Source: Selenomonadaceae bacterium (lineage in GTDB: Bacteria; Bacillota; Negativicutes; Selenomonadales; Selenomonadaceae). Taken from it: DNA of 41,970 bases. Below, one piece after another: positions 2,712-26,663 of this stretch. Within the stretch, counting starts at the first letter, position 1. Each line of letters opens with the position of its first letter. The DNA lies in NCBI GenBank assembly GCA_017635875.1, contig JAGBKP010000073.1, positions 1 to 41,970 on the forward strand, in the 5' to 3' direction. The translations under genes were made by a program, and so were the position numbers. The notes under the pieces are model-generated. The model saw nothing but the letters and a program-made list of their open reading frames with translations. It made no database searches and had not been told where the DNA came from.

Positions 2712-2732
2712 CGATGAAAAGAGGGAAGAAAG

Positions 2733-3971: not shown

Positions 3972-5058
3972 GGAAAGGATTTTTTTGTGGGGGACAGGTT
4001 CGATAGCTACCGATGTGATGGCATCATTCGGATCTTTTATAGACGAGATTTATGATGTTCTTGGATTTATTGATAGTGATCTAAAAAAACAAGGAAAAAT
4101 GTATTTTGGAAAGATTATTTTTCCGCCAACTGCGCTGATAACGCAAAAATATGACAAAATTATTGTTTTAACCGATTTCATAAACGAAATTAAGAAATTG
4201 GCGGTTGGCGCTTATTCTTGCGAAGAATCAAAACTGATGGACAGATTTTCTCTTTATCAACAGGTTTTAACGGCGAGATACAAAAATTCGACGGATACAG
4301 AAATTCAAAAAGTTCTAAACAATATAAATAGGCGTGGATTAAAAATTTTTAATTATGATTTTATCGACGAATATAAAGGGAAATATACGCAAGTATTAAA
4401 AGATGACAGTTGCGGACTGTTTTATGTTATGCATAAAGGTAAAAGGATGTATTTTAATCGTAATTTTACCAGTGAAAGCAGCGCGATGTCATATTATTTG
4501 GATTTGCTGTGCGAACAGGATTATCGTTCCCCTCATTGCTACACAACCGATGGTTTTAATGTAGAAGACGGCGATGTAGTTATTGATGCTGGGGCTGCCG
4601 AGGGAATTTTTGCTTTAGATCACATTGAAAAGATTTCTCGACTATATCTTGTTGAAACTGATAAAATGTGGATAGAAGCCTTAAAACATACGTTTGCTCC
4701 ATATCTTGACAAGACGATTTTTGTTGAAAAATATCTGTGCGATGCTGATTATGGACCGTACGCTTCACTTGATAATATTACAAGTGAGAAAGTAAATTTT
4801 ATTAAAATGGATATTGAAGGGAATGAATGGGATGCCCTAAAAGGCGCATATAATTTAATCAAAAATTCCTCAAGACTGCGATGCGCAATTTGCTGTTATC
4901 ATACAGATTATGATGAATATTTAATCTGTGATTTATTAAAAAAATACGGCCTTGAATTAACTTTGTCAGATGGTTATATGTGGTTTCCGTATAAAACGAA
5001 GAATCGTTTGATATCCGATCGATTGCATCGAGGTGTGGTGCGGGGAGAGAAGAAATAA
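3964..5058 (+). CDS. FkbM-family methyltransferase with N-terminal Rossmann-like module
   Basis: A second FkbM-type SAM methyltransferase. Residues 1-80 carry the shared module (IFLWGTGSIATDVM, LGFIDSD, KIIVLTDF). The catalytic domain follows a linker of about 100 residues, with VVIDAGAAEGIFA near residue 203 as SAM motif I and NFIKMDIEGNEWDAL near residue 280. It overlaps the preceding glycosyltransferase by 8 bases. It is not closely similar to the first FkbM gene outside these motifs. It probably methylates a hydroxyl of a repeat-unit sugar; the target is not predictable from sequence. Confidence 0.82.
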   Translation: MNKERIFLWGTGSIATDVMASFGSFIDEIYDVLGFIDSDLKKQGKMYFGKIIFPPTALITQKYDKIIVLTDFINEIKKLAVGAYSCEESKLMDRFSLYQQVLTARYKNSTDTEIQKVLNNINRRGLKIFNYDFIDEYKGKYTQVLKDDSCGLFYVMHKGKRMYFNRNFTSESSAMSYYLDLLCEQDYRSPHCYTTDGFNVEDGDVVIDAGAAEGIFALDHIEKISRLYLVETDKMWIEALKHTFAPYLDKTIFVEKYLCDADYGPYASLDNITSEKVNFIKMDIEGNEWDALKGAYNLIKNSSRLRCAICCYHTDYDEYLICDLLKKYGLELTLSDGYMWFPYKTKNRLISDRLHRGVVRGEKK

Positions 5059-5091
5059 TAGATTTTTGAATTTGTGGAGGCAAATTTGATT

Positions 5092-6255
5092 ATGAGAAAA
5101 CTTGCCATTTTTACCGCTGGTCGCGCGGGTCAAATTTTACAAAAAAAATATTCGCCGGAACAAGTGGAATGCTTTATTGACAATGACAATACAAAACAAG
5201 GAACATGTATTAACAATGCGCCTGTTATGAGTTTGGAGGATTTTTTGACATCGCGCTCGACAGCTCAAATCATTATTCCGTCTTGGGAGTATATACCGTC
5301 TGTAGCCGCGCAAATAGAAAACGCTGGAATTATGGATTGGGATTTCAAAAATGCCTTTTTTGATCCAAGCTATCCTTCGGATATGCTGGTAATTAACCCT
5401 TACAACGAAAAACACACCGGTCTACATTCAGAAATCGAGTTTAACGCAGACTTAATAAACAATAGACAATTACAGGAGGCTCAAATTATATACGCAAGAA
5501 TGCTTGCCAGAACAAAGCCTATATTTAATCATATTGAGATTGAAACATATAATCGTTGCAACGGTTCTTGCGATTTCTGCCCGGTCAGTAAATTGCGCGA
5601 TAAGCGTCCTGAAACATTTATGAGTCAAAAACTCTTTTACAACATTATCGATCAACTGCGCGATATGGATTATCGCGGAAGACTATCGCTTTTTTCTAAT
5701 AATGAGCCGTTTTTAGACGAACGAATAATAGATTTTCAGGCTTACGCAAGGAAGCGATTGCCCAATGCTTGTATGCAGCTGTTGACCAACGGCACATTGC
5801 TTTCTCTCGATAAATTTAAAAGTATTATCGATGATTTGGACTATCTAATCATTGATAATTATAACGATAGATTAGAATTAAATAAAACAAGCAAAATTAT
5901 CAAATCATATTGTGAAGAACATAAAGAATTAATAGAAAAAGTGACGATTGTAATTAGAAATCCAAGAGAAATTTTGACATCACGCGGTGGAGAAGCTCCG
6001 AATAGAAAAGATATGAAGTCGTATCCTAACGCCGCTTGTTGTCTTCCTTTTAGACAATTGATTATTAGACCGGATGGAAAGGTTTCGATGTGTTGCAACG
6101 ATCCATTGGGAAAAACCGCTATGGGCGATTTAACCAAAGTCTCCATTATGGACGTTTGGCAAAACGAGCAGTTCCAAACTATTAGAAATAGCTTGCTTGA
6201 TGGACGCAAGAATATTGAACATTGTAAATTCTGCGATACATTTTACTTTTTTTAG
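5092..6255 (+). CDS. Radical SAM/SPASM-domain protein with N-terminal Rossmann-like module
   Basis: A radical SAM enzyme. The cluster-binding CxxxCxxC is in YNRCNGSCDFCP at about residues 156-163. A C-terminal SPASM region has cysteines in AACCLPF, KVSMCCND and HCKFCDTFYFF, for auxiliary Fe-S clusters. The first 80 residues are the locus-specific module (LAIFTAGRAGQIL, CFIDNDNTKQG). The ATG at 5092 begins at the conserved module start; a GGAGG ends 11 bases before it, and TTG 5086 is an alternative. Within a polysaccharide cluster it could catalyse a radical sugar or lipid modification such as a dehydration, epimerisation or deoxygenation. No RiPP precursor peptide is visible nearby. Substrate unknown. 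Confidence 0.82.
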   Translation: MRKLAIFTAGRAGQILQKKYSPEQVECFIDNDNTKQGTCINNAPVMSLEDFLTSRSTAQIIIPSWEYIPSVAAQIENAGIMDWDFKNAFFDPSYPSDMLVINPYNEKHTGLHSEIEFNADLINNRQLQEAQIIYARMLARTKPIFNHIEIETYNRCNGSCDFCPVSKLRDKRPETFMSQKLFYNIIDQLRDMDYRGRLSLFSNNEPFLDERIIDFQAYARKRLPNACMQLLTNGTLLSLDKFKSIIDDLDYLIIDNYNDRLELNKTSKIIKSYCEEHKELIEKVTIVIRNPREILTSRGGEAPNRKDMKSYPNAACCLPFRQLIIRPDGKVSMCCNDPLGKTAMGDLTKVSIMDVWQNEQFQTIRNSLLDGRKNIEHCKFCDTFYFF

Positions 6256-6266
6256 GAGAATATTTA

Positions 6267-7661
6267 ATGTTAAATGTAGTTTTTTGGGGTACTGGACAAG
6301 ACAGCGACTATTATATGAAATATGTCCATTCTCTTCTTGCCGCTCATATCAAGATTACAGCTTTTGTGGACAGTAATGCCGATAAAAAATCCTTTTATGG
6401 ATATTCTGTATATTTACCAACAGAAGTATGTCGTTTGCATTTTGATAAACTCGTAATTATGACTCGTCTTTATCAGGAGGAAATTGCCGAGCAAATTGCA
6501 AGAGAAGGATTGGTAGATAAAGGGCAAGTGTTGTTGCATAAAAACTTTTATCGAGAAGTTGTTCGTATATTCTTAGAAAATAGGACTAATGTTTGCTTTT
6601 TAGGAGATAGAGGAACTTACAAACGGATGTTTTATCGAGCAAAAATATTATTCGAAGAACACGATTTTAAAGATGATGTAAGTAATCTTGATAATAGGTA
6701 TGACGCTTATTTCTTGTGCCCTCCTATGCTTGAAAAGCGTGAAGATGTTATTCGCGATTATGAACAAAACTTAATGAGCGAACTTTGCAACGTCGGCATC
6801 TCTAAAACTGATATTTTTTCATCGATATTGTGGCAAAGGTTTTTCTTTAGAGATATTGAAACCAGCTTTGGAGATGAAAATCAAAATAAGACGATTTATA
6901 TCGTTACAATCAATGCACATTATGCTGGATGGGGTATATTACTATGGAATGTGTTGGCATCTATAAAATATGCCGAAAAGCAGAACATGATACCCGTCGT
7001 AGATATGAAATATGTTCCAAATCTGTACATAGACGATGAAGATTTAGGTAAGTTTAACGCATGGGACAGATATTTTTGTCCTATTTCAAGTATTGATATT
7101 GAGACTGCTTATAAAAGCAAAAATGTAATCATCAGTAGCGGATCACCGCCATTTGAAGCAGAAGAATGCGATGGTTCGCAAATAATATTGAGAAATGAGA
7201 TACAAGAAGAAATTGAAAGTTTTGTACGAAGCAAATTTCCAAAAGAGAAAGTGCTCGGCGTAATATATCGAGGAACAGACTACAACAACAATGTGGTAGG
7301 ACATCCATTGCCTATTAAAATAGATGATTTCATTCAAATTGTTAAAGATAAATTGCAAGAAATCGGTTATCGGTATGTTTTTTTAGCTACGGAAGTATTC
7401 GAAGCGGTTGAAGCATTTCAAAGCGCGTTTGGGGATTATTTGATATATATGGAGCAGTTGCGCTTCCATGCAAACGAGACAAGATGGCTTGCAGACATTC
7501 ATTCTGCACGAGAGAACGATACATACTTGCGTGGAAAAGAATACTTAAAAGTACTCTATTTACTGGCTCAATGTGATTCTTTGCTGGGTCAACATAACGC
7601 TGCTTTCATAATTGCGCCGGTATTAAAGAATGGAAAGTATGAACACATTTTTAAACTTTAA
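6267..7661 (+). CDS. Putative fucosyltransferase-like (GT23/NodZ-type) transferase with N-terminal module
   Basis: Residues 1-75 are the shared module (VVFWGTGQDSDYYMKY, AFVDSNADKKSF, KLVIMTRL). A second, weaker copy may follow (NVCFLGDRGTYKRMF). The C-terminal half, from about residue 210, resembles the GT-B fucosyltransferases of the NodZ/FUT8 and protein-O-fucosyltransferase group. It has LGVIYRGTDYN in place of the HxRRxD loop, then GHPLPIKIDDF, YVFLATEV and a late SLLGQHNAAF. No membrane segment is seen. If correct, it transfers a deoxyhexose or related sugar from a GDP-sugar, which would fit GDP-heptose made by the genes downstream. That link is inference. Confidence 0.6.
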   Translation: MLNVVFWGTGQDSDYYMKYVHSLLAAHIKITAFVDSNADKKSFYGYSVYLPTEVCRLHFDKLVIMTRLYQEEIAEQIAREGLVDKGQVLLHKNFYREVVRIFLENRTNVCFLGDRGTYKRMFYRAKILFEEHDFKDDVSNLDNRYDAYFLCPPMLEKREDVIRDYEQNLMSELCNVGISKTDIFSSILWQRFFFRDIETSFGDENQNKTIYIVTINAHYAGWGILLWNVLASIKYAEKQNMIPVVDMKYVPNLYIDDEDLGKFNAWDRYFCPISSIDIETAYKSKNVIISSGSPPFEAEECDGSQIILRNEIQEEIESFVRSKFPKEKVLGVIYRGTDYNNNVVGHPLPIKIDDFIQIVKDKLQEIGYRYVFLATEVFEAVEAFQSAFGDYLIYMEQLRFHANETRWLADIHSARENDTYLRGKEYLKVLYLLAQCDSLLGQHNAAFIIAPVLKNGKYEHIFKL

Positions 7662-7684
7662 TTCGATTATAGGGAGTGTTTGTT

Positions 7685-8635
7685 GTGACATACTTAGTTA
7701 TAGGCGGAGCGGGATTTATAGGCAGTCACATTGCCAAACGGCTTATTGCCGAAGAGCTTGGTGCCGATGTTTATATTTACGATAATTTTTCTTCCGGCGA
7801 CAAAAAGCATTTGGGAGATGCGGTGAACAATACCCGCCTCCATATCGTTGAAGGTGAAATTAAAGACACGGATAAACTGGAAAAAACCATGCGCGGCGCG
7901 GATATAGTATATAGTTTCGCGTCAAATCCAGATATCGCCAAAGCAATGACTCAGCCTGATATTGATTTTTGGGAAGGAACATATCTTATCAACAACATAG
8001 TTGAGGCTATGAGAAAAACGGGAACAAAAAAGCTTTTGTATGCGTCGGGCAGCGGTGTTTACGGCGACGTTGGGGAAACCGTGACGGACGAGGATTTTTC
8101 GCCGATGTTGCCGTCTTCGACTTACGGCGCGAGTAAGCTTGCTTGCGAGGCGCTTATTTGCTCCTATTGCAAAATGTTTGATATGAATGCGGCGGCGTTC
8201 CGTTTTGCTAATGTGGTGGGCGATCATCAGACTCATGGCGTGGGTTATGATTTTGTAAGACGGTTGAAAGATAACCCTAAAGAGTTGCGAATACTTGGCG
8301 ACGGTACGCAGAGTAAGTCTTACATCCATGTGGAGGATATAGTAAACGCCTTGCGAACGGTGGAGAAAAAAGCATTGCAAGGTTACAATTATTACAATGT
8401 GGCGACGCTTGATCATATCACCGTAACGGAAATCGCCGATATTGCCGTCAAAATTATGGGTCTTAACAATGTTCGGTACAATTATACCGGCGGCGATCGC
8501 GGTTGGAAGGGGGATGTACCGATCGTGCGGCTTGATTCGCAGAAGATACGTCGACTCGGTTGGGCAAATAAATTTACGTCTTATGAAGCTATAGAGAAAT
8601 CGTTGATTGCAATGCGCGACGAATTGAAAGGATAA
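7685..8635 (+). CDS. NAD-dependent NDP-sugar epimerase/dehydratase (extended SDR)
   Basis: An extended short-chain dehydrogenase of the GalE/WcaG type acting on nucleotide sugars in the cytoplasm. The NAD-binding GGAGFIGS lies at residues 6-13. The catalytic pair is in STYGASK (YxxxK) with the upstream Ser/Thr region ASGSGVYG. The length of about 316 residues is usual for the family. GTG 7685 is chosen because AGGGAG lies 8 bases upstream and the protein then starts MTYLVIGGAGF. It is followed after 4 bases by a methyltransferase. It could epimerise or modify GDP-heptose or a UDP-sugar; the substrate cannot be assigned. Confidence 0.85.
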   Translation: MTYLVIGGAGFIGSHIAKRLIAEELGADVYIYDNFSSGDKKHLGDAVNNTRLHIVEGEIKDTDKLEKTMRGADIVYSFASNPDIAKAMTQPDIDFWEGTYLINNIVEAMRKTGTKKLLYASGSGVYGDVGETVTDEDFSPMLPSSTYGASKLACEALICSYCKMFDMNAAAFRFANVVGDHQTHGVGYDFVRRLKDNPKELRILGDGTQSKSYIHVEDIVNALRTVEKKALQGYNYYNVATLDHITVTEIADIAVKIMGLNNVRYNYTGGDRGWKGDVPIVRLDSQKIRRLGWANKFTSYEAIEKSLIAMRDELKG

Positions 8636-8639
8636 TTCT

Positions 8640-9494
8640 ATGAAAACTGCGGTAATATACGGGGCTACCACTACGGGAAGAAATGTTCGTAAATTATTCG
8701 AGGGGGGGGGGGTAACCAAATACAATATTTTATACTTTGTTGACGGAAATCCTCGACTTCATGGTCAAACAGTTGACGATTTGCTTGTGAAATCTCCCGA
8801 CGCTATTTTTGAAGATATGCCGGAAATCATCGTTATGGGTATCTTGACAGGGTATGAAGAAGCCAAAGACTACTTGGTAAAAAAAGGTTTTCCCGAAGAA
8901 CGAATCATAACTAGGTATGTTGATTTAGCCACTCGAGCGAGAAGACAATGTTTGGCCGATACGGCAAAAATACTTGCCGAGTATAAAGTTTTAGGCGCAG
9001 TAGCAGAGCTCGGCGTTTATAGAGGCGATTTTGCCAAAGAGATAAATCGCGTATTTCCCGATAGGACGCTATATCTTTTTGACACATTTGAAGGCTTTCC
9101 ATACGAGGATTTTGCGTATGACAGCGAAAGCGAACTTTTGACAAATTACGTAGGACGCTTTCAAGACACGTCGGTTGAGTTTGTACTTGGGCAAATGCCG
9201 CATCCGGGTAAATGCATCGTAAGAAAGGGCTATTTTCCGGAGACGGCGGAGGGATTAGAAAACGAAGAATTCGCTTTTGTCAGTATTGACGTTGATTTGT
9301 ACAAGCCTATATTGGACGGGTTGAATTATTTTTGGCCGCGATTAGTAAACGGCGGCGTTATATTTGTTCACGATTATTTTTCCGAATCATATTTTGGCGC
9401 AAAGAAAGCCATAGACGAATTTGCCGCGCAAAGAAATATTGCGTTTACGCCAATCGGCGATACGCTTAGCGTTATCTTTCGCAAGAGCGGCTGA
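8640..9494 (+). CDS. TylF/macrocin-like O-methyltransferase with module; contains G11 tract
   Basis: A class I SAM methyltransferase of the TylF/MycF type. After an N-terminal module of about 95 residues (TAVIYGATTTGRNV, FVDGNPRLHGQ) come VAELGVYRGDF as SAM motif I, YLFDTFEGFP, VSIDVDLYKP and FVHDYF with conserved acidic metal ligands. A run of 11 G about 20 codons after the start encodes a Gly-Gly-Gly loop absent from the tandem paralogue. The gene is in frame (ON) at this length; gain or loss of one G would truncate it. AAAGGA precedes the ATG. Together with the next gene it forms a tandem duplication. Confidence 0.85.
   Translation: MKTAVIYGATTTGRNVRKLFEGGGVTKYNILYFVDGNPRLHGQTVDDLLVKSPDAIFEDMPEIIVMGILTGYEEAKDYLVKKGFPEERIITRYVDLATRARRQCLADTAKILAEYKVLGAVAELGVYRGDFAKEINRVFPDRTLYLFDTFEGFPYEDFAYDSESELLTNYVGRFQDTSVEFVLGQMPHPGKCIVRKGYFPETAEGLENEEFAFVSIDVDLYKPILDGLNYFWPRLVNGGVIFVHDYFSESYFGAKKAIDEFAAQRNIAFTPIGDTLSVIFRKSG
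8702..8712 (+). repeat. G11 tract, probable phase-variation switch
   Basis: Eleven G about 60 bases after the ATG of a surface-glycan methyltransferase gene, within codons read as E-G-G-G-V. The neighbouring paralogue has no such run at the same place. At 11 G the gene is in frame. Confidence 0.75.
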
Positions 9495-9510
9495 TAAGAA
9501 AGGAATAAAT

Positions 9511-10362
9511 ATGAAAACTGCAGTAATATACGGCGCGTCCATGACAGGCAAGGATGTGTACCGACAAGTAAAGGATAAGTATGATATTTTGTTTTTTGTT
9601 GATCGTAATCCTGCGCTGGTGGGGGAGGAAATTGACGGATATCCGATAAAAGAAGAAAAGGCGGTACTTGACGCAAAACCCGATATTTTAATTATGGGGG
9701 TGCTTACGGGCTATGAAACGAGCGCAAAAAAATATGCTGAAAACGGTTTTCCCGCCGAAAGGATAATAACTTCATACGTTGACTTACCGCATCGAGCCAG
9801 AACAAAAGCGCTTGAAATGGCGGCAAGCATCATAAAGGAGAAAAATGTGCCTGGAGCCGTAGCGGAATTAGGAGTATATCGCGGCGATTTCTCGCGGGAG
9901 ATTAACCGAGTATTTTCGGATAAGACATTATATCTCTTTGATACATTTGAGGGATTTCCCGACGATGATTTGCAATTTGATGAGGAAAACGATCTGCTCT
10001 TGACAAAAGTTGGAAAACTTGACAATACGTCCGTTGAGATGGTGAGAAATAAATTGCCTCACCCAGAAAAAGCAAAATTCATCAAAGGCTACTTCCCGGC
10101 CAGCATAAATAGGGGGGGTATAGCAGACGACAGGTTTTCTTTTGTCAATATTGACGTGGATTTATATAAGCCTATATTGGCTGGATTGAATTGGTTTTGG
10201 CCGAGATTATCGCCATACGGCTATATATTTGTTCACGATTATTTTTCGTTGTCTTACGTCGGAGCGAAAAAAGCTATCGAAGAATTCGCCGAAGCGAATA
10301 AAGTGAACTTCAGCCCCATAGGCGACACACTTAGCGTTGCTTTTTGTAAGAATGGCAAATAA
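9511..10362 (+). CDS. TylF/macrocin-like O-methyltransferase, tandem paralogue
   Basis: A paralogue of the preceding gene along its whole length, with the same MKTAVIYGA start, VDRNPALVGEEI module, VAELGVYRGDF SAM motif, NIDVDLYKPILAGLN and FVHDYFSLSY. The start at 9511 follows AAAGGAA at a good distance; an in-frame extension back to 9421 would only overlap the upstream gene. It probably methylates a different position or sugar from its twin, perhaps on the heptose made downstream, by analogy with methylated heptoses of Campylobacter capsules. A G7 run at 10112-10118 is short and probably stable. Confidence 0.85.
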   Translation: MKTAVIYGASMTGKDVYRQVKDKYDILFFVDRNPALVGEEIDGYPIKEEKAVLDAKPDILIMGVLTGYETSAKKYAENGFPAERIITSYVDLPHRARTKALEMAASIIKEKNVPGAVAELGVYRGDFSREINRVFSDKTLYLFDTFEGFPDDDLQFDEENDLLLTKVGKLDNTSVEMVRNKLPHPEKAKFIKGYFPASINRGGIADDRFSFVNIDVDLYKPILAGLNWFWPRLSPYGYIFVHDYFSLSYVGAKKAIEEFAEANKVNFSPIGDTLSVAFCKNGK

Positions 10363-10388
10363 GGGTAAAACTAATTGGAGGCGGTAAG

Positions 10389-11363
10389 ATGATCATAGCC
10401 AGAAGCCCCTTGCGGATAACATTAGGCGGCGGTGGTACGGATTTGGCATCGTATTACGAAAAACGCGGCGGATTTTTGCTGTCGGCGGCTATAGACAAAT
10501 ATGTCTATATACTGTTAAACAAAACTTTCGACGGTTCGCTTTTGGCAAAATATTCCAAGATTGAACGGGCGCACAAAGCCGACGAGTTGCAACATCCCAT
10601 TATTCGCGAAGCGTTAAAAATGATGAATCTTGAAACAGTGCCGATTGAGATTTGTTCTATGGCGGATATACCCGCGGGCACGGGACTTGGTTCCTCAAGC
10701 ACATTTACCACCGCTCTTTTGACCGCTCTTCATTGCTATACGGGAAATCCCGTTCGTTCGCGGCGAATTGCCGAGGAGGCTTGCGAGATAGAAATAAATC
10801 GTCTGGGCGAGCCGATAGGGAAACAGGATCAGTATATATCTGCTTACGGCAGTATTATGGAGATGGAGTTTCAAAAGGACGGTTCGGTTGAAATAGAACC
10901 CGTGCATCTATCCGATGAGACTTTTTACAATCTTGAGGACGGTTTGTCATTGTTTTTTACCGGCTATTCCCGCTCGGCGAGTAATATTTTAAAGGAGCAG
11001 GATACAAAGTCAAAATCCTCCGATGAAGAGATGCTTAACAATCTCGACGATGTTAAGCGAATGGGTATTGAGAGCAAAAACGCTTTGGAGCGCGGCGACC
11101 TTGTAACCTTTGCAGAGATAATGAACGAGCATTGGGAGAAGAAGAAGAAACGTTCCGGCGGTATGAGTAATCCCAAGATTGACGAGTGGTACCAATTAGC
11201 TATGAAAAACGGCGCATTGGGCGGCAAGTTGATAGGAGCCGGCGGAGGCGGATTTTTGATGTTCTTTGCCAACGACAAGCCGAAACTTCGCCAAATAATG
11301 AAGAATGCCGGACTTGAGGAAGTGCGTTTTCGTTTTGAGATGGAAGGAGCGAAGATATTATAA
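10389..11363 (+). CDS. hddA: D-glycero-alpha-D-manno-heptose-7-phosphate kinase
   Basis: A GHMP-family sugar kinase matching HddA, which phosphorylates D-glycero-alpha-D-manno-heptose 7-phosphate at C1. It starts with RSPLRITLGGGGTDLASYY, the hallmark of heptose and fucose kinases. The ATP-binding loop is IPAGTGLGSSS near residues 98-108, and a late GGKLIGAGGGGFLMFF is the third GHMP motif. At 324 residues it has the usual length. It sits directly before the nucleotidyltransferase/phosphatase fusion and gmhA, making a complete GDP-heptose branch. AGGCGG precedes the ATG. Confidence 0.93.
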   Translation: MIIARSPLRITLGGGGTDLASYYEKRGGFLLSAAIDKYVYILLNKTFDGSLLAKYSKIERAHKADELQHPIIREALKMMNLETVPIEICSMADIPAGTGLGSSSTFTTALLTALHCYTGNPVRSRRIAEEACEIEINRLGEPIGKQDQYISAYGSIMEMEFQKDGSVEIEPVHLSDETFYNLEDGLSLFFTGYSRSASNILKEQDTKSKSSDEEMLNNLDDVKRMGIESKNALERGDLVTFAEIMNEHWEKKKKRSGGMSNPKIDEWYQLAMKNGALGGKLIGAGGGGFLMFFANDKPKLRQIMKNAGLEEVRFRFEMEGAKIL

Positions 11364-11377
11364 ATTTCAACGGCAGA

Positions 11378-12694
11378 TTGGAAGATACAGAAGTTATTGT
11401 CTTGATGGGCGGTTTGGGAACTAGGCTGGGACTTGCCGATCGACCAAAAGTTCTTGCCGATGTAAATGGAAGACCGTTCTTTGACTGGCAGTTAAAAATC
11501 TTAAAGCGTTGGGGTTTTCGCAAGTTCATTTTCCTCGTGGGTTATATGAGCGATGCCGTTAAAAAACATTACGGCAACGGAGAAAAATTTGGCGTAGAAA
11601 TAAAATATTCCGCAGACGGAGAAAAGCCCTTGGGCACCGGCGGCGCATTAAAAAAAGCCGACGCGCTTATTGACGGCGATTTTTTGCTAATGTATGGCGA
11701 TTCATTTATGGATATAGACTATCAAGAGATGGTTTATCATTATGCCGATATTAAAAACGACAACTTACTTGGGATGACAGCGATTCTGCACAATAAAAAT
11801 GCGCTCGACAGGAGTAATGTCGAATATAAGGACGATGGGCGAATTTTTTACGATAAGTTTAATCCCACGCCGAAGATGGAATATGTCGACTATGGCATTT
11901 CAATTATGGCAAAAGAAATCTTGCGCAATATTCCCGCCGATGTCTATTTCGATATTGCCGAACTTATGAATAGCGTTTCAAAGGAAGATAAATTGTTCGG
12001 TCATGTGGTGACGCGTCGATTTTATGAAATCGGTTCGCCTACGTCGTTGGACGAATTTCGCGCCTATGCGCGACAACGATTTTTGCAAAAAAGAAAAGCC
12101 GTATTCTTTGATCGCGACGGCGTTATCAACGAGATTATACTAAACGAAGAAACAGAGCAGCTTGACTCGCCTTTTGAAATCGTCGATTTTCACTATAAAG
12201 ACGGCGCTATCGACGCAATGCGAAAACTCCAAGACGCGGGCTATTTGTTGTTTGTTGTCACAAATCAACCTGCGGCGGCAAAGGGGAATACGACGCTAAA
12301 AAAATTGTACGCGCTCAATCGGTGGCTCGAAAAAGACTTGCAACAGCGCGGAGTAAAAATCGAATTTATAAATATGTGTCCGCATCATCCGTCTGGTACG
12401 GAGCGGAGCAAACAAAAATTTTTGCTCGGCGAATGCGACTGCCGCAAACCAAAATCCGGCTTAATCACCGATTTATTAAGTGTGTACGGGATAGATACGG
12501 AAAATTCCTTTATGGTCGGTGATTCTTATACCGACGTGTTAGCCGCAAAAGGGGCAAACATAAAATCAATTTTGCTCGGCGATTTGAAATGTGATGCTTG
12601 TAGTCGTTTGGCGGGAAACAAACCCGATTTTATAATCAACGATGTCACTGAGTTGCCGACTATTATACGAGGAGGAACCAATAATGCTGAATGA
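11378..12694 (+). CDS. hddC-gmhB: Fusion of GDP-heptose guanylyltransferase (HddC-like) and heptose-bisphosphate phosphatase (GmhB-like)
   Basis: Residues 1-225 form an NTP transferase domain (VIVLMGGLGTRLG, RPKVLADVNGRPF, KPLGTGGALKKA, LLMYGDSF), like HddC, which makes the GDP-heptose. From about residue 240 a HAD-IIIA phosphatase follows: AVFFDRDGVINE with the nucleophile Asp, FVVTNQPAAAKG, a Zn loop CPHHPSG...CDCRKPK, and MVGDSYTDVLAAK. This matches GmhB, which removes the C7 phosphate before guanylylation. The two consecutive steps are therefore on one polypeptide. The start is uncertain: TTG 11378 has no clear ribosome site, while GGAAGGAG lies too far upstream, nearer 11357. The 3' end overlaps gmhA by 11 bases. 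Confidence 0.9.
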   Translation: MEDTEVIVLMGGLGTRLGLADRPKVLADVNGRPFFDWQLKILKRWGFRKFIFLVGYMSDAVKKHYGNGEKFGVEIKYSADGEKPLGTGGALKKADALIDGDFLLMYGDSFMDIDYQEMVYHYADIKNDNLLGMTAILHNKNALDRSNVEYKDDGRIFYDKFNPTPKMEYVDYGISIMAKEILRNIPADVYFDIAELMNSVSKEDKLFGHVVTRRFYEIGSPTSLDEFRAYARQRFLQKRKAVFFDRDGVINEIILNEETEQLDSPFEIVDFHYKDGAIDAMRKLQDAGYLLFVVTNQPAAAKGNTTLKKLYALNRWLEKDLQQRGVKIEFINMCPHHPSGTERSKQKFLLGECDCRKPKSGLITDLLSVYGIDTENSFMVGDSYTDVLAAKGANIKSILLGDLKCDACSRLAGNKPDFIINDVTELPTIIRGGTNNAE

Positions 12695-13256
12695 CTACAT
12701 TGAAAATTATCTGCAGGAAACCAAACAAATAGCGGATACCGTGTCGAAAACCGAAATAGCTAATGCAGTAGATATTTTGGCAAAAACGAAAAAAGAGGGC
12801 GGTCGCCTGTTTATATTAGGCGTAGGCGGTAGCGCGGCAAACGCGTCCCATGCAGTCAATGATTTTAGAAAAATCGGCGGCATTGAAACCTATGCGCCGA
12901 CCGACAACGTATCGGAACTCACGGCGCGCACGAACGACGAGGGCTGGGAGACAACATTTGTCGAGTGGCTGAAAACGTCGCGCATCAATGCAAACGATGC
13001 TGTAATGGTGTTTTCCGTTGGCGGAGGTAGCGAAACGACCTCGCTCAACATCGTCAATGCACTGAAATTAGCGCGGGAGGTAAAAGCGAAAATTATATCA
13101 ATCGTATCAAGAAACGGCGGTTATGCAAAAGAGGTCTCTGACGCTTGTATGCTAATACCAGTAGTAGCAGACGAGCGTATAACGCCGCATGCCGAAGGAT
13201 GGCAGGGCGTTGTTTGGCATTTGCTGGTGAATGCTATGAAGAATAAAGACATATGA
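12684..13256 (+). CDS. gmhA: Sedoheptulose-7-phosphate isomerase
   Basis: A SIS-domain sugar-phosphate isomerase that converts sedoheptulose 7-phosphate to D-glycero-D-manno-heptose 7-phosphate, the first step of heptose synthesis. Typical motifs are LGVGGSAANASHAVNDFRK and the second phosphate-binding stretch FSVGGGSETTS. At about 190 residues the length is normal. The start ATG 12684 follows AGGAGG at 8 bases, inside the end of the upstream fusion gene. Its placement next to hddA and hddC-gmhB and just before a transaldolase supports the assignment. It differs in sequence style from GmhA of proteobacterial core LPS loci, as do Campylobacter capsule GmhA2 proteins. Confidence 0.92.
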   Translation: MLNDYIENYLQETKQIADTVSKTEIANAVDILAKTKKEGGRLFILGVGGSAANASHAVNDFRKIGGIETYAPTDNVSELTARTNDEGWETTFVEWLKTSRINANDAVMVFSVGGGSETTSLNIVNALKLAREVKAKIISIVSRNGGYAKEVSDACMLIPVVADERITPHAEGWQGVVWHLLVNAMKNKDI

Positions 13257-13274
13257 TAAGAGGAGTTTGAAAAA

Positions 13275-13991
13275 ATGAAGATTGAGGATTTAAAAGTTGA
13301 TATTTACGCCGACGGAGCGGATATTGACGGAATGCTTGAGATGAGCAATAAAAGCTATATAAAGGGTTTTACCACTAATCCGTCGCTGATGAAAAAAGCG
13401 GGCGTTAAAGACTATGCTAAATTTGCAAAAGAGGTAACAAGTCACATCACTGATTTGCCAATTTCATTTGAAGTGTTTGCCGATGATTTTCCTACGATGA
13501 AAAAGGAAGCGTTGATTTTGTCGAAGTTTGGCAAAAATGTATTTGTGAAAATTCCCGTTACCAATACTAAAGGCGAATCCTCTGCAAACTTAGTGAAGGA
13601 ATTGAGCGCAGAGGGTGTAAATCTGAATATAACGGCGATATTCACATTAGAGCAGACGGAAAAAATCGTGGACGCTTTGTCCGGCAACACGAAAAATATA
13701 ATATCCGTATTCGCGGGGAGAATCGCCGATACCGGCGTTGACCCGGAACCGCTTATGAAGAAGGCGGCGAAAATTTGTCACGAAAAACAGGGGACAAAAC
13801 TCTTATGGGCAAGCTGCCGCGAGGTATTCAACGTCGTACAGGCCGATCGTAGCGATACGGATATCATAACCGTCACAAATGATATTTTGGGCAAGTTGAA
13901 AATGTTTGAGAAGGATTTGACTGAATATTCCCTTGATACGGTAAAGCAGTTCTATGAAGACGGTAAAAGTTTAGGATTTCATATCGCGTAA
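13275..13991 (+). CDS. Transaldolase-family protein (short TalC/FSA type)
   Basis: A class I aldolase-fold protein of about 238 residues. The start IYADGADIDGM and GFTTNPSLMKKAG are family motifs, and the Schiff-base lysine lies in VFVKIPVT. In ISVFAGRI the aromatic residue is Phe, as in true transaldolases; fructose-6-phosphate aldolases typically have Tyr there. I therefore favour transaldolase, which makes or consumes sedoheptulose 7-phosphate, the substrate of GmhA. It is 18 bases after gmhA and clearly in the same transcription unit. A housekeeping-type role is possible, but the location argues for supply of heptose precursor. Confidence 0.82.
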   Translation: MKIEDLKVDIYADGADIDGMLEMSNKSYIKGFTTNPSLMKKAGVKDYAKFAKEVTSHITDLPISFEVFADDFPTMKKEALILSKFGKNVFVKIPVTNTKGESSANLVKELSAEGVNLNITAIFTLEQTEKIVDALSGNTKNIISVFAGRIADTGVDPEPLMKKAAKICHEKQGTKLLWASCREVFNVVQADRSDTDIITVTNDILGKLKMFEKDLTEYSLDTVKQFYEDGKSLGFHIA

Positions 13992-14013
13992 AGTTAGAAT
14001 CGGAGGATAAAAT

Positions 14014-15237
14014 TTGTCACCTGTTGTAATTGTCGTGCCAGTATATAAGAAAGAATTATCTGCTTCTGAAAAGATATCTCTCGATAGATTATATAAAACA
14101 TTGGGTAAATATCCCATTGTTTTCGTAGCCCCAGCAAAATTGAGTGATTATTTAAAGTGTAAAGGATATGTTGTGGAAAGTTTTCACGATGAATTTTTTA
14201 AAGATATTCTTTCTTATAGTAAAATGCTACTCACTCCTGATTTTTATAGAAGATTTTCTACATACGAATATATGTTGATTCATCAGTTGGACGCATTTGT
14301 ATTTTCAGATCAGCTTATAAAGTGGTGTGATAAAGGTTATGATTTTATTGGAGCACCTATGCCGCGTATATGGTGGCCAAATTTGACAAAACATCCATGG
14401 AACGGCGGGTTGTCTTTACGAAAAGTGTCAAGCTTTATTCAGGTGACAAAAATTCGAGAGGAAATTTTTTCTATATCTGGCAGAAAGTCTGAATTTGAGA
14501 GATATGAGGATGCGTTCTTTAGTTATTGTGGAGAGCACAAAAACATAGACTTTTCAGTCCCTACATTTAATGAGGGGAAACTTTTTTCACTTCAAGCCAA
14601 TATAGGACATTGTTATAGTAAATTGAAGATACAAAATTTACCATTTGCATGTCACGGATGGAACAAACCGCATTATTTCCCTTTTTGGCGAAAATATATT
14701 GAATACTTTTCAGGTCAATTGGATGCGGTGGAAGCAGAAGTTAATAATAGTCAGGGTTGGTCTTATGATGAGCAACGTAGAAAATTTATAGATTGTTATT
14801 ACTTGATGCCGCGAATTATGAGAAATAATCCATCAGAAGCATATGATGTGTTTGCTCGATTATACCAGATTGATGCTAAATATGTTTTGTGGGGCTATGG
14901 TTTTTGGGGTAGAGATGCTGTTGATTTTTTTCGCTACATTGGCGTAAAATTGAAAATAATATTTGATATTAAAGCTAATAATAATGATACAGTAGATGGA
15001 ATACCTAAGATGATACCCGATTTAAATTTGATAAAATCAAGCGGGTACAAAGTGATTATTGCTACAGATAAATACGAAAAGGAAATCGCTTCTCAACTCA
15101 TTGCTATTGGAATGAAAAAAGATATAGATTATTGTGATTTTATTACGCTAAAAAAGAATTTTATAAATGAATATTACAAAGGTATCTGCGGTAGGATGTT
15201 TTTATCAAAGAATGTAAATTGGGAGGATAATATATGA
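14014..15237 (+). CDS. DUF5672 glycosyltransferase with C-terminal Rossmann-like module
   Basis: The N-terminal 270 residues match the DUF5672 family of capsule and O-antigen proteins, thought to be glycosyltransferases. Markers are YMLIHQLDAFVFSD, GYDFIGAPMPRIWW, WNGGLSLRK and the late CHGWNK. From about residue 288 the shared module appears at the C-terminus (YVLWGYGFWGRDAVDFF, IIFDIKANNNDTVDG, KVIIATDKYEK). The start is TTG 14014 after GGAGG. Its stop overlaps the next start as ATGA. Base composition is visibly more AT-rich than the heptose genes just upstream, suggesting a different origin. Confidence 0.78.
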   Translation: MSPVVIVVPVYKKELSASEKISLDRLYKTLGKYPIVFVAPAKLSDYLKCKGYVVESFHDEFFKDILSYSKMLLTPDFYRRFSTYEYMLIHQLDAFVFSDQLIKWCDKGYDFIGAPMPRIWWPNLTKHPWNGGLSLRKVSSFIQVTKIREEIFSISGRKSEFERYEDAFFSYCGEHKNIDFSVPTFNEGKLFSLQANIGHCYSKLKIQNLPFACHGWNKPHYFPFWRKYIEYFSGQLDAVEAEVNNSQGWSYDEQRRKFIDCYYLMPRIMRNNPSEAYDVFARLYQIDAKYVLWGYGFWGRDAVDFFRYIGVKLKIIFDIKANNNDTVDGIPKMIPDLNLIKSSGYKVIIATDKYEKEIASQLIAIGMKKDIDYCDFITLKKNFINEYYKGICGRMFLSKNVNWEDNI

Positions 15238-16793
15238 AACTGTATCAGTTTGATATATTGATTTTTGAATCAATACAATGCAACGAAATTTACATTATCA
15301 ATTATTCAGAATATTATCTTTCAAAGCTATGCGATGCCTTTCCAGTTTTGGAATATATTGCTGGCGGCTGGGATGATGTTCCTTATCGGCAAGGCGTGCA
15401 TGAATTTCGGGGACATCGGATACGTATTACGAATTACGAAAATGTAGAGCGTGTTCCGCAATCAGCGATTCTTTTGATTATCGATCCATATCCGTACGCG
15501 CGTTTTAAATTGGTTTCCTCAAAACAAGAAATTTCTGAACGTTTTTCAAAAATATATTTTTTTGCAGATAAAGAGACAACTTATTATTTATCATACATTG
15601 AAAAATATAAAAATGATGCGCTTGAAAATATCATTGTTTTTCGCAGTGGTCCAGGAGCATCGCGAAATGTCCCTGGAATTGATTTTGGGGATAACGCTCG
15701 CGCGTTATTTGAATATATGCTTCGTGAGGGTTACGACAACGAATACACTCTTGTTTGGCTTGTACGCGATCCTGCGAAATATATCGAAAAATATGAAGGG
15801 AGAAATGTAAGATTTTTCCCATATACAGCATCTGAAACTGATAATGTGAGCATACGAGAAAAATATTATTATTATCTCTGCCATGCAAAATTTATTTTTT
15901 TTACTAATTCGGGAGTGTTTTCGTCACATGCGCGTGCTGATCAGGTGCGTGTTCAGCTTTGGCACGGCTGTGGGTTTAAGAATATACGAAGTGTACGTAT
16001 AGGACGCGATGAATATAAGTATGAGTATATGATTGTTACAAGCAAATTATATGCGAAGCTTCATGAACTAGATTTTGGACTTCGCTCTGATCAGCTTTTG
16101 GTCACAGGCTATCCGAAAGATGATCTCCTGTTTTATCCGATATCTGGGTGGCCACAGAAATTCAACATACATAAGGCAAAGAAATATATTTTTTGGTTGC
16201 CAACATGGAGAACAACTGCCCTTTCGGGAGAGTGGCAAGGGGAAATCGTAAACAAGGAAACAGGATTGCCTATTATAGATACGATGGGGAAACTTGAAGA
16301 AATTAATGAGTTTTTATGCGCAAAGGACATCGTTCTTGTTATTAAATTGCATCCTTGGCAAGAAACAACTGTGTTGCCGGAATTAAATTTGTCTAATGTC
16401 GTTGTTCTAAAGAATGAGTTGCTTGCAAAAGAAGATGTTCAAATAAATGAATTACTGGGACATGCAGATGCTCTTATAAGCGATTATTCCTCTGTAGCCG
16501 TCGACTATACATTGCTTGACCGCCCGATAGGTTTTACATTGGATGATATTGGTGTATATAAAGATCGTCGTGGTTTTCTTTGGGAAAACATTCATGATTG
16601 GTTGCCGGGAATGGAGATATTTTCTGTTCGGGATTTTATGGAATTTATATTCAGCGTATTTGATGGGACAGATCCTTTTCGAGAGAAACGCAGGCAACTT
16701 GATAAAATGTTTCATGATTTTTCAGATGCTAGGAGCTCCTCTAGAGTATTAGAAATGTTGGGAATAAAGCATGGAAATATTGAAGTTTTTTGA
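15234..16793 (+). CDS. CDP-glycerol/CDP-ribitol phosphotransferase family protein (TagF/TarL type)
   Basis: The C-terminal 370 residues match the GT-B-like CDP-glycerol:poly(glycerophosphate) glycerophosphotransferase family. Motifs are VQLWHGCGFKN, a TGYPKDD turn, LVIKLHPW and the conserved LISDYSSVAVDY. It likely adds polyol phosphate units at the inner membrane surface. Because TarI/TarJ-like genes for CDP-ribitol lie 1.7-3.5 kb downstream, ribitol phosphate is the more likely unit than glycerol phosphate. Residues 1-130 are atypical for the family and may be a diverged copy of the shared module. No membrane segment is obvious. The 3' end overlaps the next gene by 23 bases. Confidence 0.85.
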   Translation: MKLYQFDILIFESIQCNEIYIINYSEYYLSKLCDAFPVLEYIAGGWDDVPYRQGVHEFRGHRIRITNYENVERVPQSAILLIIDPYPYARFKLVSSKQEISERFSKIYFFADKETTYYLSYIEKYKNDALENIIVFRSGPGASRNVPGIDFGDNARALFEYMLREGYDNEYTLVWLVRDPAKYIEKYEGRNVRFFPYTASETDNVSIREKYYYYLCHAKFIFFTNSGVFSSHARADQVRVQLWHGCGFKNIRSVRIGRDEYKYEYMIVTSKLYAKLHELDFGLRSDQLLVTGYPKDDLLFYPISGWPQKFNIHKAKKYIFWLPTWRTTALSGEWQGEIVNKETGLPIIDTMGKLEEINEFLCAKDIVLVIKLHPWQETTVLPELNLSNVVVLKNELLAKEDVQINELLGHADALISDYSSVAVDYTLLDRPIGFTLDDIGVYKDRRGFLWENIHDWLPGMEIFSVRDFMEFIFSVFDGTDPFREKRRQLDKMFHDFSDARSSSRVLEMLGIKHGNIEVF

Positions 16794-17871
16794 GAGTTGT
16801 AAAGAAATTGTATTATATGGTCAAGCTGATTATGTTATGCGTATAAAGAGTTATTTTGGAGAAATTTATCCGAATATACATCTTATTTTTATGGAATTTC
16901 CACCCGAGTTTTATAGATTTGATACTATGGTGGAGAATTTAGACCACTATGATAGCGATCTAAAATCATTATCTTATAAAAGTTGTATTTTCGTGTTGTT
17001 TACTGAACAATATAATGCAATGGCAGAAGGTCATTTGAGAAAATTAGGTTTTAAGAATCTAATATTATATGGATCGTTTATCGATAATGAATTAAAGTCT
17101 ATTTTCTTTCCTAGATATTTCGCTAAAAGGAAGCTAAAATTTCAAATGCTTTCCGATATGAAAAGTATACGGGAGAACAGAAAAATCTGTATAACGATTT
17201 ATCAAGCGAAATGTCTCTCTGATAAAAAGATTTCAAAGGAGGTAGCACGAACACCATATATGATTCCCATACAAGTTGGCGCGTCAATGACTCATGAAAA
17301 AATTGCGGACTTGACAGACGATACTGGAGACAACATATCATATCGCAATTTGAGATATTCGGAAATGACGGCATTTTATTGGATGTGGAAAAATGACATT
17401 ACATCGGATTATCTTGGCATTTGCCACTATAGGCGACTTTGGGCAGATTTAGACGGCATTATCAACAAATTGCAAACTGTGGATATTGATGCAGTTTTAC
17501 CTTTACCTACCCTTTGCGAACATTCTGTCTATGAGGACTATATGCTTAAATATATACCTACTGCTTGGCAACCGATGATGGAAGTTTTAAAACGACTCTC
17601 GCCCGAATATTATGAAGCATCAAAGAAGATTTTTGATGACAGAATATTTTACGCAAGCAATATGTGCATATTAAAAAGAAATGTTTTGAACGATTTATGT
17701 AATTGGATGTTTCCCATAGTGGCGGAAGTGGAAGAAATTGTAGGAGATATTGACGACTCATACTACAACAGATACGCAGGTTTTTGTACGGAACGATTGA
17801 TTACACTCTATTTTTTATATAATAAAAACAACTGGAAAATCGCGCATGCAGAAAAGGTTTTTATTGGATAG
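16771..17871 (+). CDS. DUF4422 capsular polysaccharide glycosyltransferase
   Basis: The C-terminal 240 residues belong to DUF4422, found in capsule and O-antigen glycosyltransferases. The domain opens with ICITIYQAKCLSDKK and has IPIQVGASM, then YRNLRYSEMTAFYWMWKN and LGICHYRRLW. The first 110 residues (EIVLYGQADYVMRI, CIFVLFTEQYN, LILYGSFID) look like another diverged copy of the shared N-terminal module. It starts inside the end of the preceding gene (23-base overlap) and ends 8 bases before the epimerase gene, so it is in the same operon. Confidence 0.8.
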   Translation: MEILKFFESCKEIVLYGQADYVMRIKSYFGEIYPNIHLIFMEFPPEFYRFDTMVENLDHYDSDLKSLSYKSCIFVLFTEQYNAMAEGHLRKLGFKNLILYGSFIDNELKSIFFPRYFAKRKLKFQMLSDMKSIRENRKICITIYQAKCLSDKKISKEVARTPYMIPIQVGASMTHEKIADLTDDTGDNISYRNLRYSEMTAFYWMWKNDITSDYLGICHYRRLWADLDGIINKLQTVDIDAVLPLPTLCEHSVYEDYMLKYIPTAWQPMMEVLKRLSPEYYEASKKIFDDRIFYASNMCILKRNVLNDLCNWMFPIVAEVEEIVGDIDDSYYNRYAGFCTERLITLYFLYNKNNWKIAHAEKVFIG

Positions 17872-17879
17872 GTGGGAAA

Positions 17880-18545
17880 ATGTACTTTCAACTTATGGCG
17901 TCAATGATGTGCGCCGATTACGGGAATTTGAAAAGAGAGGTGGAGTCTCTCGACAAAGGAGGCATCGACTCTTTTCATATAGACATAATGGACGGACGGT
18001 ATGTGCCAAATTACGCTATGTCGCTTAACGATATGCGTTATATCCGCTCCGCCACGTCAAAGCCTCTGGACGTGCATCTTATGGTGGAACACCCTAACAA
18101 TACCATTGAAATTTTTATAAACAATCTCAAAAAGGGCGATACTATCTATATACACCCCGAGGCGGAGTATCACCCTTCGACAACATTGCAAAAAATCATT
18201 AACGCGGGGCTTATTCCAGGCATAGCAATAAACCCGGGTACCAGCGTGGAAACTATCTACGAGATGCTTCGCATTGTGAAATCTGTTCTTGTAATGGCGG
18301 TAAATCCCGGCAACGCGGGGCAGATGTTTTTGCCTTATGTCGGAAGAAAATTGAAACATCTTTTGGAGATGCGCAAGGAAATGAAATTCGATGTATATTG
18401 GGACGGGGCTTGCAGCGCGGAAAAGATAAGAGATTATGCTCCGTTGGGAGTAAGAGGTTTTGTACTCGGCACTACCTTGCTTTTCGGGAAAGCAAGACCC
18501 TACGGCGATACATTGCAAGCGATACGGGAGATGAGATTCGATTGA
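17880..18545 (+). CDS. rpe: Ribulose-phosphate 3-epimerase family protein
   Basis: A TIM-barrel pentose-phosphate epimerase interconverting D-xylulose-5-P and D-ribulose-5-P. Conserved motifs are FHIDIMDGRYVPNY, LDVHLMVEHP and MAVNPGNAGQMF. The usual VDGGI near the C-terminus is here YWDGACS, keeping the acidic residue but diverged around it. It directly precedes the TarI-like gene (4-base TTGA overlap), so I infer that it supplies ribulose-5-P for CDP-ribitol. Its divergence suggests a cluster-dedicated paralogue rather than the housekeeping enzyme, or a related sugar-phosphate epimerase. Confidence 0.82.
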   Translation: MYFQLMASMMCADYGNLKREVESLDKGGIDSFHIDIMDGRYVPNYAMSLNDMRYIRSATSKPLDVHLMVEHPNNTIEIFINNLKKGDTIYIHPEAEYHPSTTLQKIINAGLIPGIAINPGTSVETIYEMLRIVKSVLVMAVNPGNAGQMFLPYVGRKLKHLLEMRKEMKFDVYWDGACSAEKIRDYAPLGVRGFVLGTTLLFGKARPYGDTLQAIREMRFD

Positions 18546-24548: not shown

Positions 24549-24592
24549 AAGGATTATGAAAACCAAAATCAGTTTTCATAATCCTTATTTTT
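24549..24592. terminator. Bidirectional intrinsic terminator between folC and the convergent ILEI gene
   Basis: A perfect 15-bp stem (24549-24563 with 24572-24586) has an 8-base loop and is followed by a T-rich tail on the + strand and T-rich sequence on the minus strand. It separates two convergent genes. Confidence 0.9.
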
Positions 24593-26586
24593 TTATTTGG
24601 GAAATTTTCTTCTCAAATATTGCAAAGTTTGCGGAGGAACAAGTTTCTTTAGTTTTTCAAACTCTTTCGCCTTCGCAAGTCGGCGAACTTCCGACGCGCT
24701 TACCGGCTCTCCTTTAAACTTCATTCTTGGGATTTCAAAAAATTTAATGCCGTACTGCGGCAAGAGCCGCGCCATACTTTCGTTATATTGCCGCGTCACG
24801 TTGTCAAAGGGTTCTTCTCCCGCAAAGCGCATACTTATGCCAAGACATGGCGCGATTTCCTTTGCAAACATTGTGACGTCAAGCGAAGTGTCGATTTTTC
24901 GCTCCTGCAGGCTTTCTTTATTGAAATATTCCTCAAAAGTGCGAGCGGAGATGATAAATTCGCCGCTTGGAATAACGGTGACGCGCTTTAGGTCGGCAAG
25001 ATTTTTTCTGACGAGTTCTATTCGGTCTGCAAAAGGGAATACGGATTTATCTTCCTCCACAACAAAGACGATAAGACGCTCGCAGTATTTTAACGCCTGC
25101 TCCACAAGATAACGGTGCCCGTTCGTGAAGGGGTTGCAATTCATCACAATGGAGCCGATTTTAGGGCGAAGGGTTTGATTATAGAAGGTTTGTAATTTTC
25201 CCTTGTATTCGCGAAGCTCTTCGTCCTCATCTTCGTTTTGGCTTTGGTTTATATGAATTGGAACGCCAACATCTGTGGGCAAATCTTTTTCAAAGAAATC
25301 GTTATTTTTGAGAAATTCAAAGATACCGTCGGCTATCATTCGGTTGCCGCTTTGGGTGAAATGACCATCGGTAAAGATTTCACCATAATTATGCGGACGG
25401 ACAGACATCAACGATAGATTGCAATGAGGGATACCCCAAACTGTCCCACTATAAAAAAATACAACATCTCCTTTTTTTAGGGGAAGATTACGAAGGGTAG
25501 ATAGGTCGCGGCTTAAATCATCTCCAGTAAAAGAGTAATTGTAAATAATGATACCTTTCTTTTTTTCTCGTTCGTTTAATTTTTGTTGCAATAAAGATTC
25601 AAAGGTATTGGAATCTGTTGCGCCCCATCCGTAAAAATACGACGGGCCGATAAAGAAAAAAGTGCGTTTGCTATTTTTGGGTTGATTAGTCGTGACTCTT
25701 ATTCCTTCTCTCGTGTTTACTGCATTGTTGGAATAATCCACATAATGATGTGTTCCGTCTATATCAACGTAGGAAGGCGGTATATCAAAAGCATCATAGA
25801 AGTCTTGAAAGGAAGGATAATCTTTGCAAAAAGGAAAAATTTTTGATTCATAGACTGTTTTCATATAAAACATATCGGTATGTTTAGGATTAAATGTTTT
25901 AATGGATTCCTCTCCTATAGCTACATTGTGTTCGTGCTCTGTAACATCAAGATTATACTTTGGCGGTTTTCTCGGCACACTCAATGTGCATAATTGAACG
26001 TCGGGCATCTTTTTTACAAATGTAAGCAATGCTTTTTCCGCAGGATTATTTCTATGAGCACTTTTCCCCATATCATAGGTATCATAAGAGAAGGCGTCTA
26101 CAACTCTATCCTCTTTTTTATCAAACACAAAGAAATTAAATCCTCTGCCGCCTGTGCCATAATTTGCTCCGTCAATTAAGACCATAGCGCCGCAGCCAAT
26201 GCCGTGTTGGTAATTGAATCCCGCGCTATAGATGGTAAGGTCGTGCGTATTTAATTTTCCGTTGATAACCAAAGGCTTTTCCAAATCTTCGGAAACTTTC
26301 TCCGCAGCTATTTTTCCGCAGTCAATGACGGCTATATAAGGCTGGCGATATCTATGGAGCATATTTACTTTGAGCCCCAAGTCCATCATAGCTTCTGCGC
26401 ACTCCAGAGTAAAATATTCGGCGGCTCCCGTATCTGCAACCGTAATGATGACAACGTATTTTGGGAGAACTTTCTTTAAAAGACGAAGATAATTTAAAAG
26501 ATCTCGCTCGCTTTTTAATGCTTTTTCAAGCGTGTCGCCCGTAGAGGGGCTCTCTTCTCTGGGGGGGGGGTAATGGTTTCTTTCAT
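24593..26586 (-). pseudogene. ILEI-domain / SGNH-like / cytidylyltransferase-like fusion, phase-OFF by C10 tract
   Basis: The minus-strand start ATG at 26586, after AAGGA, leads into C10 (26570-26561). At 10 C the frame ends at TAA 26517-26515 after 23 codons. At 8 or 11 C it joins the 598-codon frame that is open from the tract to 24593, giving about 664 residues. Numbered from the internal ATG at 26389, residues 51-130 resemble the ILEI (FAM3-like) domain (IYSAGFNYQHG, MVLIDGANYG, RGFNFFVFD, SYDTYD). Residues 241-360 look SGNH-like (FFIGPSYFYGWG, TDGHFTQSGN). Residues 411-598 resemble the citrate lyase ligase nucleotidyltransferase (IVMNCNPFTNGHRYL, SASEVRRLA). It is not a true CitC, since no citrate lyase genes are near. 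In the OFF state a product could start only at 26389. It probably modifies a surface polymer. Confidence 0.8.
26561..26570 (-). repeat. C10/G10 homopolymer, phase-variation switch
   Basis: Ten G on the + strand (C on the coding strand), 16 bases after the predicted start codon. The downstream frame is offset from the ATG by one base at this length and would be restored at 8 or 11. No alternative in-frame start exists upstream of the tract, because an in-frame TAA lies just before the ATG. Confidence 0.85.
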
Positions 26587-26633
26587 AATTTTATTCCTTT
26601 CAAGAATGAATTTTTGCCACCTGCAGTTGATTT

Positions 26634-26663
26634 ATTATAGTTTATTGTTTGCGACTTTGTCAA
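26634..26663 (-). promoter_or_regulatory. Consensus sigma-A promoter of the phase-variable ILEI gene
   Basis: On the minus strand, TTGACA (26663-26658), an 18-base spacer, then TATAAT (26639-26634). Both hexamers match the consensus exactly. It lies about 48 bases upstream of ATG 26586, so transcription should be strong whatever the tract length. Confidence 0.85.

Follow-up and report, generated by a model that had tools for sequence, protein, structure and literature searches.

At the locus studied here, a start codon on the minus strand leads into ten consecutive C residues, and the gene as assembled ends shortly afterwards, although a long open frame continues beyond the tract; the question is why such a gene is present in this form. 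The preliminary description presented it as a large surface-polymer enzyme gene in the OFF state of a phase-variable switch operated by slipped-strand mispairing. We examined the locus within the window (the whole stretch of 41,970 nucleotides that was analysed) and in the context of the 2.39 Mb genome, which is assembled in 222 contigs, using pattern counts and 30 sequence stretches for the genome-wide statistics. From these sequences, we consider it highly probable that the focal locus is a translational phase-variation (contingency) locus that operates by slipped-strand mispairing.

On the minus strand, the sequence at the tract reads ATGAAAGAAACCATTA-C10-AGAGAAG, with the ATG at 26586-26584 and the homopolymer, which is a G10 on the plus strand, at 26561-26570 (Table 1). 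The consensus promoter and the ribosome-binding site noted earlier were found again, with a 12 of 12 promoter match and the sequence AAAGGA, and the ATG at 26586 is the sole ATG, GTG or TTG codon in all three stop-free frames that enter the tract, so that the claim that no other in-frame start exists upstream holds. When the tract was rewritten in silico to 7-13 C, a long product was obtained only at 8 C (663 amino acids) and 11 C (664 amino acids), and lengths of 7, 9, 10, 12 and 13 C gave peptides of 19-24 amino acids. The C10 form yields 23 amino acids followed by the stop codon at 26517-26515, in agreement with the early stop and the two restoring lengths proposed previously. Stepwise changes in tract length thus decide whether translation stops early or runs through the whole frame; the assembled consensus is one insertion or two deletions away from the ON state. 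The open reading frame was originally given as 598 codons because the first usable start past the tract, the ATG at 26389, lies 57 codons into the open frame; the frame that reaches the tract has 655 codons. What the preliminary description observed in the sequence is confirmed throughout.

Table 1. Coordinates of the features at the focal locus and of the promoter-spacer tracts elsewhere in the genome.
Feature	Position	Strand	Basis or remark
-35 box TTGACA	26658..26663	-	with -10 box, 12/12 match
-10 box TATAAT	26634..26639	-	12/12 promoter match, 18-nt spacer to -35 box
Ribosome-binding site AAAGGA	26595..26600	-	8 nt before ATG
Start codon ATG	26584..26586	-	sole start leading into C10 tract
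C10 tract, after codon 5	26561..26570	-	ON at 8 or 11 C; OFF in assembled sequence
OFF-state product, 23 codons and stop	26515..26586	-	frame arithmetic
Intact 655-codon enzyme frame beyond tract	24593..26560	-	open frame and protein-level selection pattern against 67%-identical homologue
ILEI-like stretch	25958..26146	-	PF15711, E 0.002 (weak, below Pfam cut-off)
SGNH-fold domain, G-P-S and D-G-H motifs	25292..25666	-	conserved residues and predicted fold
Citrate-lyase-ligase C-terminal domain, PPAT-like adenylyltransferase fold, NPFTxGHR motif	24614..25159	-	PF08218 and fold
Terminator-like hairpin	24549..24586	-	common to focal gene and convergent folC
Promoter poly-G runs	L021:2626-2633, L024:1746-1754, L036:5025-5033, L037:1309-1318, L013:2052-2061		8-10 G, spacers 18-20 nt

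The homopolymer, which lies in the 5' coding region, is longer than expected by chance. The window, which has a GC content of 40%, contains 102 G/C runs of 4 bases, 14 of 5 bases, none of 6 and a single one of 7; this G7 is the only run of 6-9 bases, and the three longest runs measure 10, 11 and 12 bases. Since three runs of at least 10 were observed, as compared to 0.008 (Markov order 1) or 0.005 (order 3) expected, a chance origin of the C10 run was rejected. The frame downstream of the tract has been maintained by selection: the 655 codons are intact, the family-invariant residues are present, and the differences between the focal gene and a 67%-identical homologue amount to 0.27, 0.18 and 0.61 at codon positions 1, 2 and 3, respectively. 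Codon-position differences were used in place of dN/dS, which was unusable since synonymous sites were saturated, and they show protein-level selection on the frame as measured over a long branch.

The encoded protein consists of three parts, an ILEI-like part, an SGNH-fold part and an adenylyltransferase of the citrate-lyase-ligase type with a PPAT fold. The match of the C-terminal domain to PF08218 is strong (E 7.7e-63, 211.9 bits as compared to a cut-off of 20.9), and a phosphopantetheine adenylyltransferase (PPAT) was the sole match in a sequence search of the PDB. AlphaFold2 models were obtained with a pLDDT of 81 for the whole protein and 88 for an N-terminal construct of 415 residues, and structure comparison of the modelled C-terminal domain likewise identified the PPAT fold (Z 19). 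A true citrate lyase ligase, CitC, was rejected, as the full-length score against TIGR00124 was 204.4 bits, below the equivalog cut-off of 262.1; no citrate lyase genes were found among the window ORFs scanned. Residues ~299-423 are predicted to adopt an SGNH fold, with CgnD matched at Z 10.8 over 168 residues at 3.2 A (AlphaFold2 and VIA-align) and carbohydrate esterases, TesA and PatB at Z 5-8, and the sequence of this part scores below the cut-off of Pfam PF13472. Position 307 is Ser or Cys in 10 of the 10 aligned family members, and Asp398, His400 and the NPFTxGHR motif are invariant in all 10, the focal protein included; the predicted fold together with the block I Ser and the block V Asp/His places this part in the SGNH superfamily. 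For the ILEI-like part, no solved structure ranked above the SGNH matches, from which novelty does not follow. When 299 genomes of the phylum were searched with the N-terminal half, the hits beyond the family were all weak and partial, and the architecture therefore looks largely confined to Selenomonadaceae in this sample. The domains suggest an ATP-using, probably cytosolic enzyme that activates and transfers acyl groups (or removes them).

The designation as a surface-polymer enzyme could not be established from the genomic surroundings. The focal gene is convergent with valS-folC and has DUF4405, flavodoxin and TetR genes on its upstream side, which rules out membership of a glycan operon. 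Positions 83-18545, beyond valS-folC, hold a surface-glycan cluster that includes heptose-type genes as well as genes for FkbM and TylF methyltransferases and for a CDP-glycerol transferase. In this cluster, a TylF-type methyltransferase gene (8640-9494) carries a G11 at 8702-8712, at codon 21, and is in frame (ON), and a second ORF of this type (9421-10362) contains a G7 at 10112-10118. The homologues in L022, L030, L039 and L041 are also located outside glycan or capsule operons, next to GGDEF/VanW/hemB, cysK, trkH, or GH1 and aspartokinase genes, and one homologue in the genus g13 adjoins coaD. Since the neighbours are varied housekeeping or other genes, the focal gene behaves as a solo gene. 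Its product is probably cytosolic and would activate an acyl or similar group, or transfer it, for attachment to a glycoconjugate or a glycan precursor, and a glycan-acylating role is a reasonable proposal in view of the domains and of the other genes that carry tracts.

Such tracts recur throughout the genome: 34 G/C runs reach 8 bases or more, 17 of them 10 or more, and lengths of 9-10 are the most frequent. For runs of 9 bases or more, the counts are 25, 22 and 25 for the three genomes that represent the genus and mostly 0-8 for the other genera of the family; the family maximum, 88, was observed in a 2.4 Mb genome of the genus g13 (G040). Matches to Pfam and NCBIfam identify the tract-bearing genes as two flagellins, FkbM and TylF methyltransferases, GT9, GT92, GT11, a hexapeptide transferase, HsdS and a filamentous haemagglutinin, and many of them would by this assignment belong to the classical contingency classes. 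Roughly 7 of the 21 readable coding tracts are in frame (ON) and 14 are OFF with intact frames, most of which are 200-950 codons long; one-third ON is the expectation for a three-state frame clock if tract length wanders freely. Two of the genes (L011 and L029) have the same design as the focal gene, with the tract four codons past the ATG. Runs of 8 G/C break an HsdS specificity gene (L020:5008-5015) and a gene for a filamentous-haemagglutinin-type adhesin (L015:2283-2290), both with long open frames on either side.

The runs in the flagellin genes, a G10 at L017:4861-4870 (contig C95) and a G14 at L034:4995-5008 (C175), are situated in the conserved N-terminal helix at codon ~42-46. At these lengths neither gene is in frame; past the tract, 715 and 953 codons remain intact, and the two flagellins are likely to be phase-variable. 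No tracts were found in the other flagellin loci examined in the genus. Contigs C24 and C124 start within G/C tracts of 10 or more bases (window 3-14 and L023:1-10, respectively), as if the assembly graph had split there. Two such contig starts were observed as compared to 0.05 expected (P ~0.001), a hint of mixed tract lengths in the sample that poly-G sequencing artefacts could also produce.

Poly-G runs were also identified in promoters, where they separate the -35 box from the -10 box. Four of these are near-copies of the sequence TTGACA-AAGCTTC-G(8,9,9,10)-TGA-TATACT, with spacers of 18, 19, 19 and 20 nt, and precede genes for related MN(L/I)xFDLQL proteins that have no Pfam match; a fifth spacer-tract promoter, in L013, carries a G10. 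These tracts likely represent transcriptional phase variation of a family of surface or secreted proteins, and the promoter-tract family is absent from the two congeners.

The ILEI-SGNH-adenylyltransferase family itself has several tract-bearing members. This genome has four copies, and three of them contain a run of 9 or more bases, which lies at codon 6 in the focal gene but near residue 187 in the other two: the copy on C120 has a G11 and is OFF, the copy on C150 has a G9 and is ON, and the fourth copy has a G7. Random scatter would give three tract-bearing copies out of four with P ~3e-6, presuming ~22 tract genes over an assumed ~2,300 genes. Among relatives, the hot spot at residue 187 holds a G10 (L042, ON), a G8 (L044, ON) and a G7 (L043), and L046 has a G10 at residue ~106 (ON). 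In the genus g13, the run lies in the linker that precedes the ligase domain, with lengths of 7-14; it is in frame in L053, L056, L060, L086 and one copy in L072, and out of frame in L061, L062, L066, L073, L081 and another copy in L072. The hot-spot and linker runs of the relatives consist of 7, 8, 9, 10, 11 or 14 bases in a mixture of frame states. In L072 (G139, C35), an SGNH-ligase tandem array has a C10 at 5162-5171 that breaks the gene and a C14 at 7094-7107, at the equivalent place, that leaves it intact; the upstream flanks of these two paralogues are 83-90% identical over 60-100 bp. A C24 that is far longer than the other runs lies just past the end of an SGNH-ligase homologue in G141 (L055:2753-2776).

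Tracts have arisen at no fewer than four positions in the family. Equivalent copies differ in length at the hot spots of the family (7-11 and 7-14), as do the four near-copy promoters; tracts therefore lengthen or shorten without loss of the sequence and frame around them. This does not extend to the focal site, where the closest full-length homologue, in L041, has no tract; the switch is therefore not conserved at the focal position.

Because tracts recur across both the genome and the enzyme family, slipped-strand phase variation is the best explanation for the focal locus. Mispairing during replication would add or remove C residues in the tract five codons past the start; cells with 8, 11 or 14 C would produce the enzyme of ~663 amino acids, cells with other lengths would produce a peptide of ~19-24 residues, and the assembled C10 consensus would represent an OFF cell. 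The OFF state and the slipped-strand mechanism put forward earlier are thus well supported genome-wide and family-wide; the reversible switching in the population at the focal site is what we infer from the anatomy of the locus, the non-random tract, the intact frame, the recurrence in family and genome and the length differences at equivalent sites, all of which were observed.

The alternative that survives best, itself improbable, is that C10 is a consensus or assembly error and that the gene is intact, with 8 or 11 C, and does not switch. The focal consensus comes from a metagenome assembly of 222 contigs, and homopolymers are the commonest site of indel errors, so that a miscount is possible; however, a one-base miscount leaves the genome-wide tracts, the nature of the target genes and the gain of tracts in paralogues and relatives unexplained, and tracts of 8-11 are hypermutable in other bacteria at any exact consensus, as for G8 and G11 in C. 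jejuni (PMC4965091). Slightly less credible is a fixed pseudogene, in which a single mutation of the tract has shut the gene off for good. The OFF consensus and the lack of a tract in the nearest homologue agree with this, and a very recent loss would be compatible with a selection signal measured over a long branch, but the intact 655-codon frame with all family-invariant residues led us to reject a simple pseudogene, and the 14 genes that are likewise OFF with intact frames beside 7 that are ON, as well as the ON state of other tract-bearing family members, argue against it. Programmed slippage of the ribosome or RNA polymerase on a fixed C10, giving a low and constant amount of full-length enzyme and thus tuning in place of switching, is very improbable, since lengths vary among equivalent sites and promoter-spacer tracts cannot work via ribosomal slippage, even though ACC-CCC-CCC is slippery, a -1 step would restore the frame and homopolymeric tracts have been proposed as a regulatory device of general use (PMC2831843). 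Slippage could nevertheless add leakiness alongside the slipped-strand switching that we favour.

The wider set of flagellins, promoter-spacer family and tract-gaining enzyme family is more interesting than the focal gene. On balance, we favour the broader reading that this Selenomonadaceae rumen bacterium has a Campylobacter-style phasome, with dozens of translational and promoter-spacer poly-G/C switches that include flagellin structural genes, and that the undescribed ILEI-SGNH-adenylyltransferase family gained tracts repeatedly and independently at different positions, so that its switching would be under selection. If this is true, the poly-G/C repertoire extends through uncultured rumen Selenomonadaceae to diderm Bacillota and gut commensals, many "broken" genes in rumen Selenomonadaceae assemblies are switches, and surface and flagellar diversity there arises randomly, as a plausible defence against phages, protozoa or host antibodies. 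That one enzyme family has gained tracts repeatedly and independently points to a modification that is worth characterising. A literature search yielded no relevant account of phase variation for Selenomonas, Negativicutes or rumen MAGs, which is no proof of novelty; the mechanism is classical, the host is an unexpected one, and the host lineage and the enzyme family appear to be unreported in the literature searched.

The bacteria best known for poly-G/C phase variation are host-adapted pathogens and mucosal species, such as those of Campylobacter, Helicobacter and Neisseria. With regard to the enzyme, the focal protein shares the PF08218 domain and the NPFTxGHR and SASxVR motifs with CitC (TIGR00124/PF08218), from which it differs in its ILEI-like and SGNH-fold N-terminal part. 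The predicted fold of residues ~299-423 resembles that of SGNH/GDSL hydrolases and transferases (CgnD, TesA, carbohydrate esterases, PatB), but the GDS block reads G-P-S, with Cys in several homologues, and the domain is fused to an adenylyltransferase. With regard to the tracts, coding (translational) and promoter (transcriptional) tracts occur together in the focal genome as they do in the genome of Helicobacter canadensis, for which length variability was obtained from read data and not, as here, from assembled sequences (PMC2823697). Campylobacter jejuni NCTC11168 has 29 G/C loci of at least 7, with switching frequencies of 0.004 for G8 and 0.02 for G11 (PMC4965091), and its contingency loci, such as Cj1295, are enriched in flagellar and glycan modification genes (PMC4965091; PMC3068675). 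The focal locus resembles these in its long coding G/C run and in an ON/OFF state set by the frame, but the host belongs to another phylum (Selenomonadaceae, Bacillota), the enzyme is a different one and switching is here predicted from the sequence. Unlike in C. jejuni, the flagellin structural genes themselves carry tracts.
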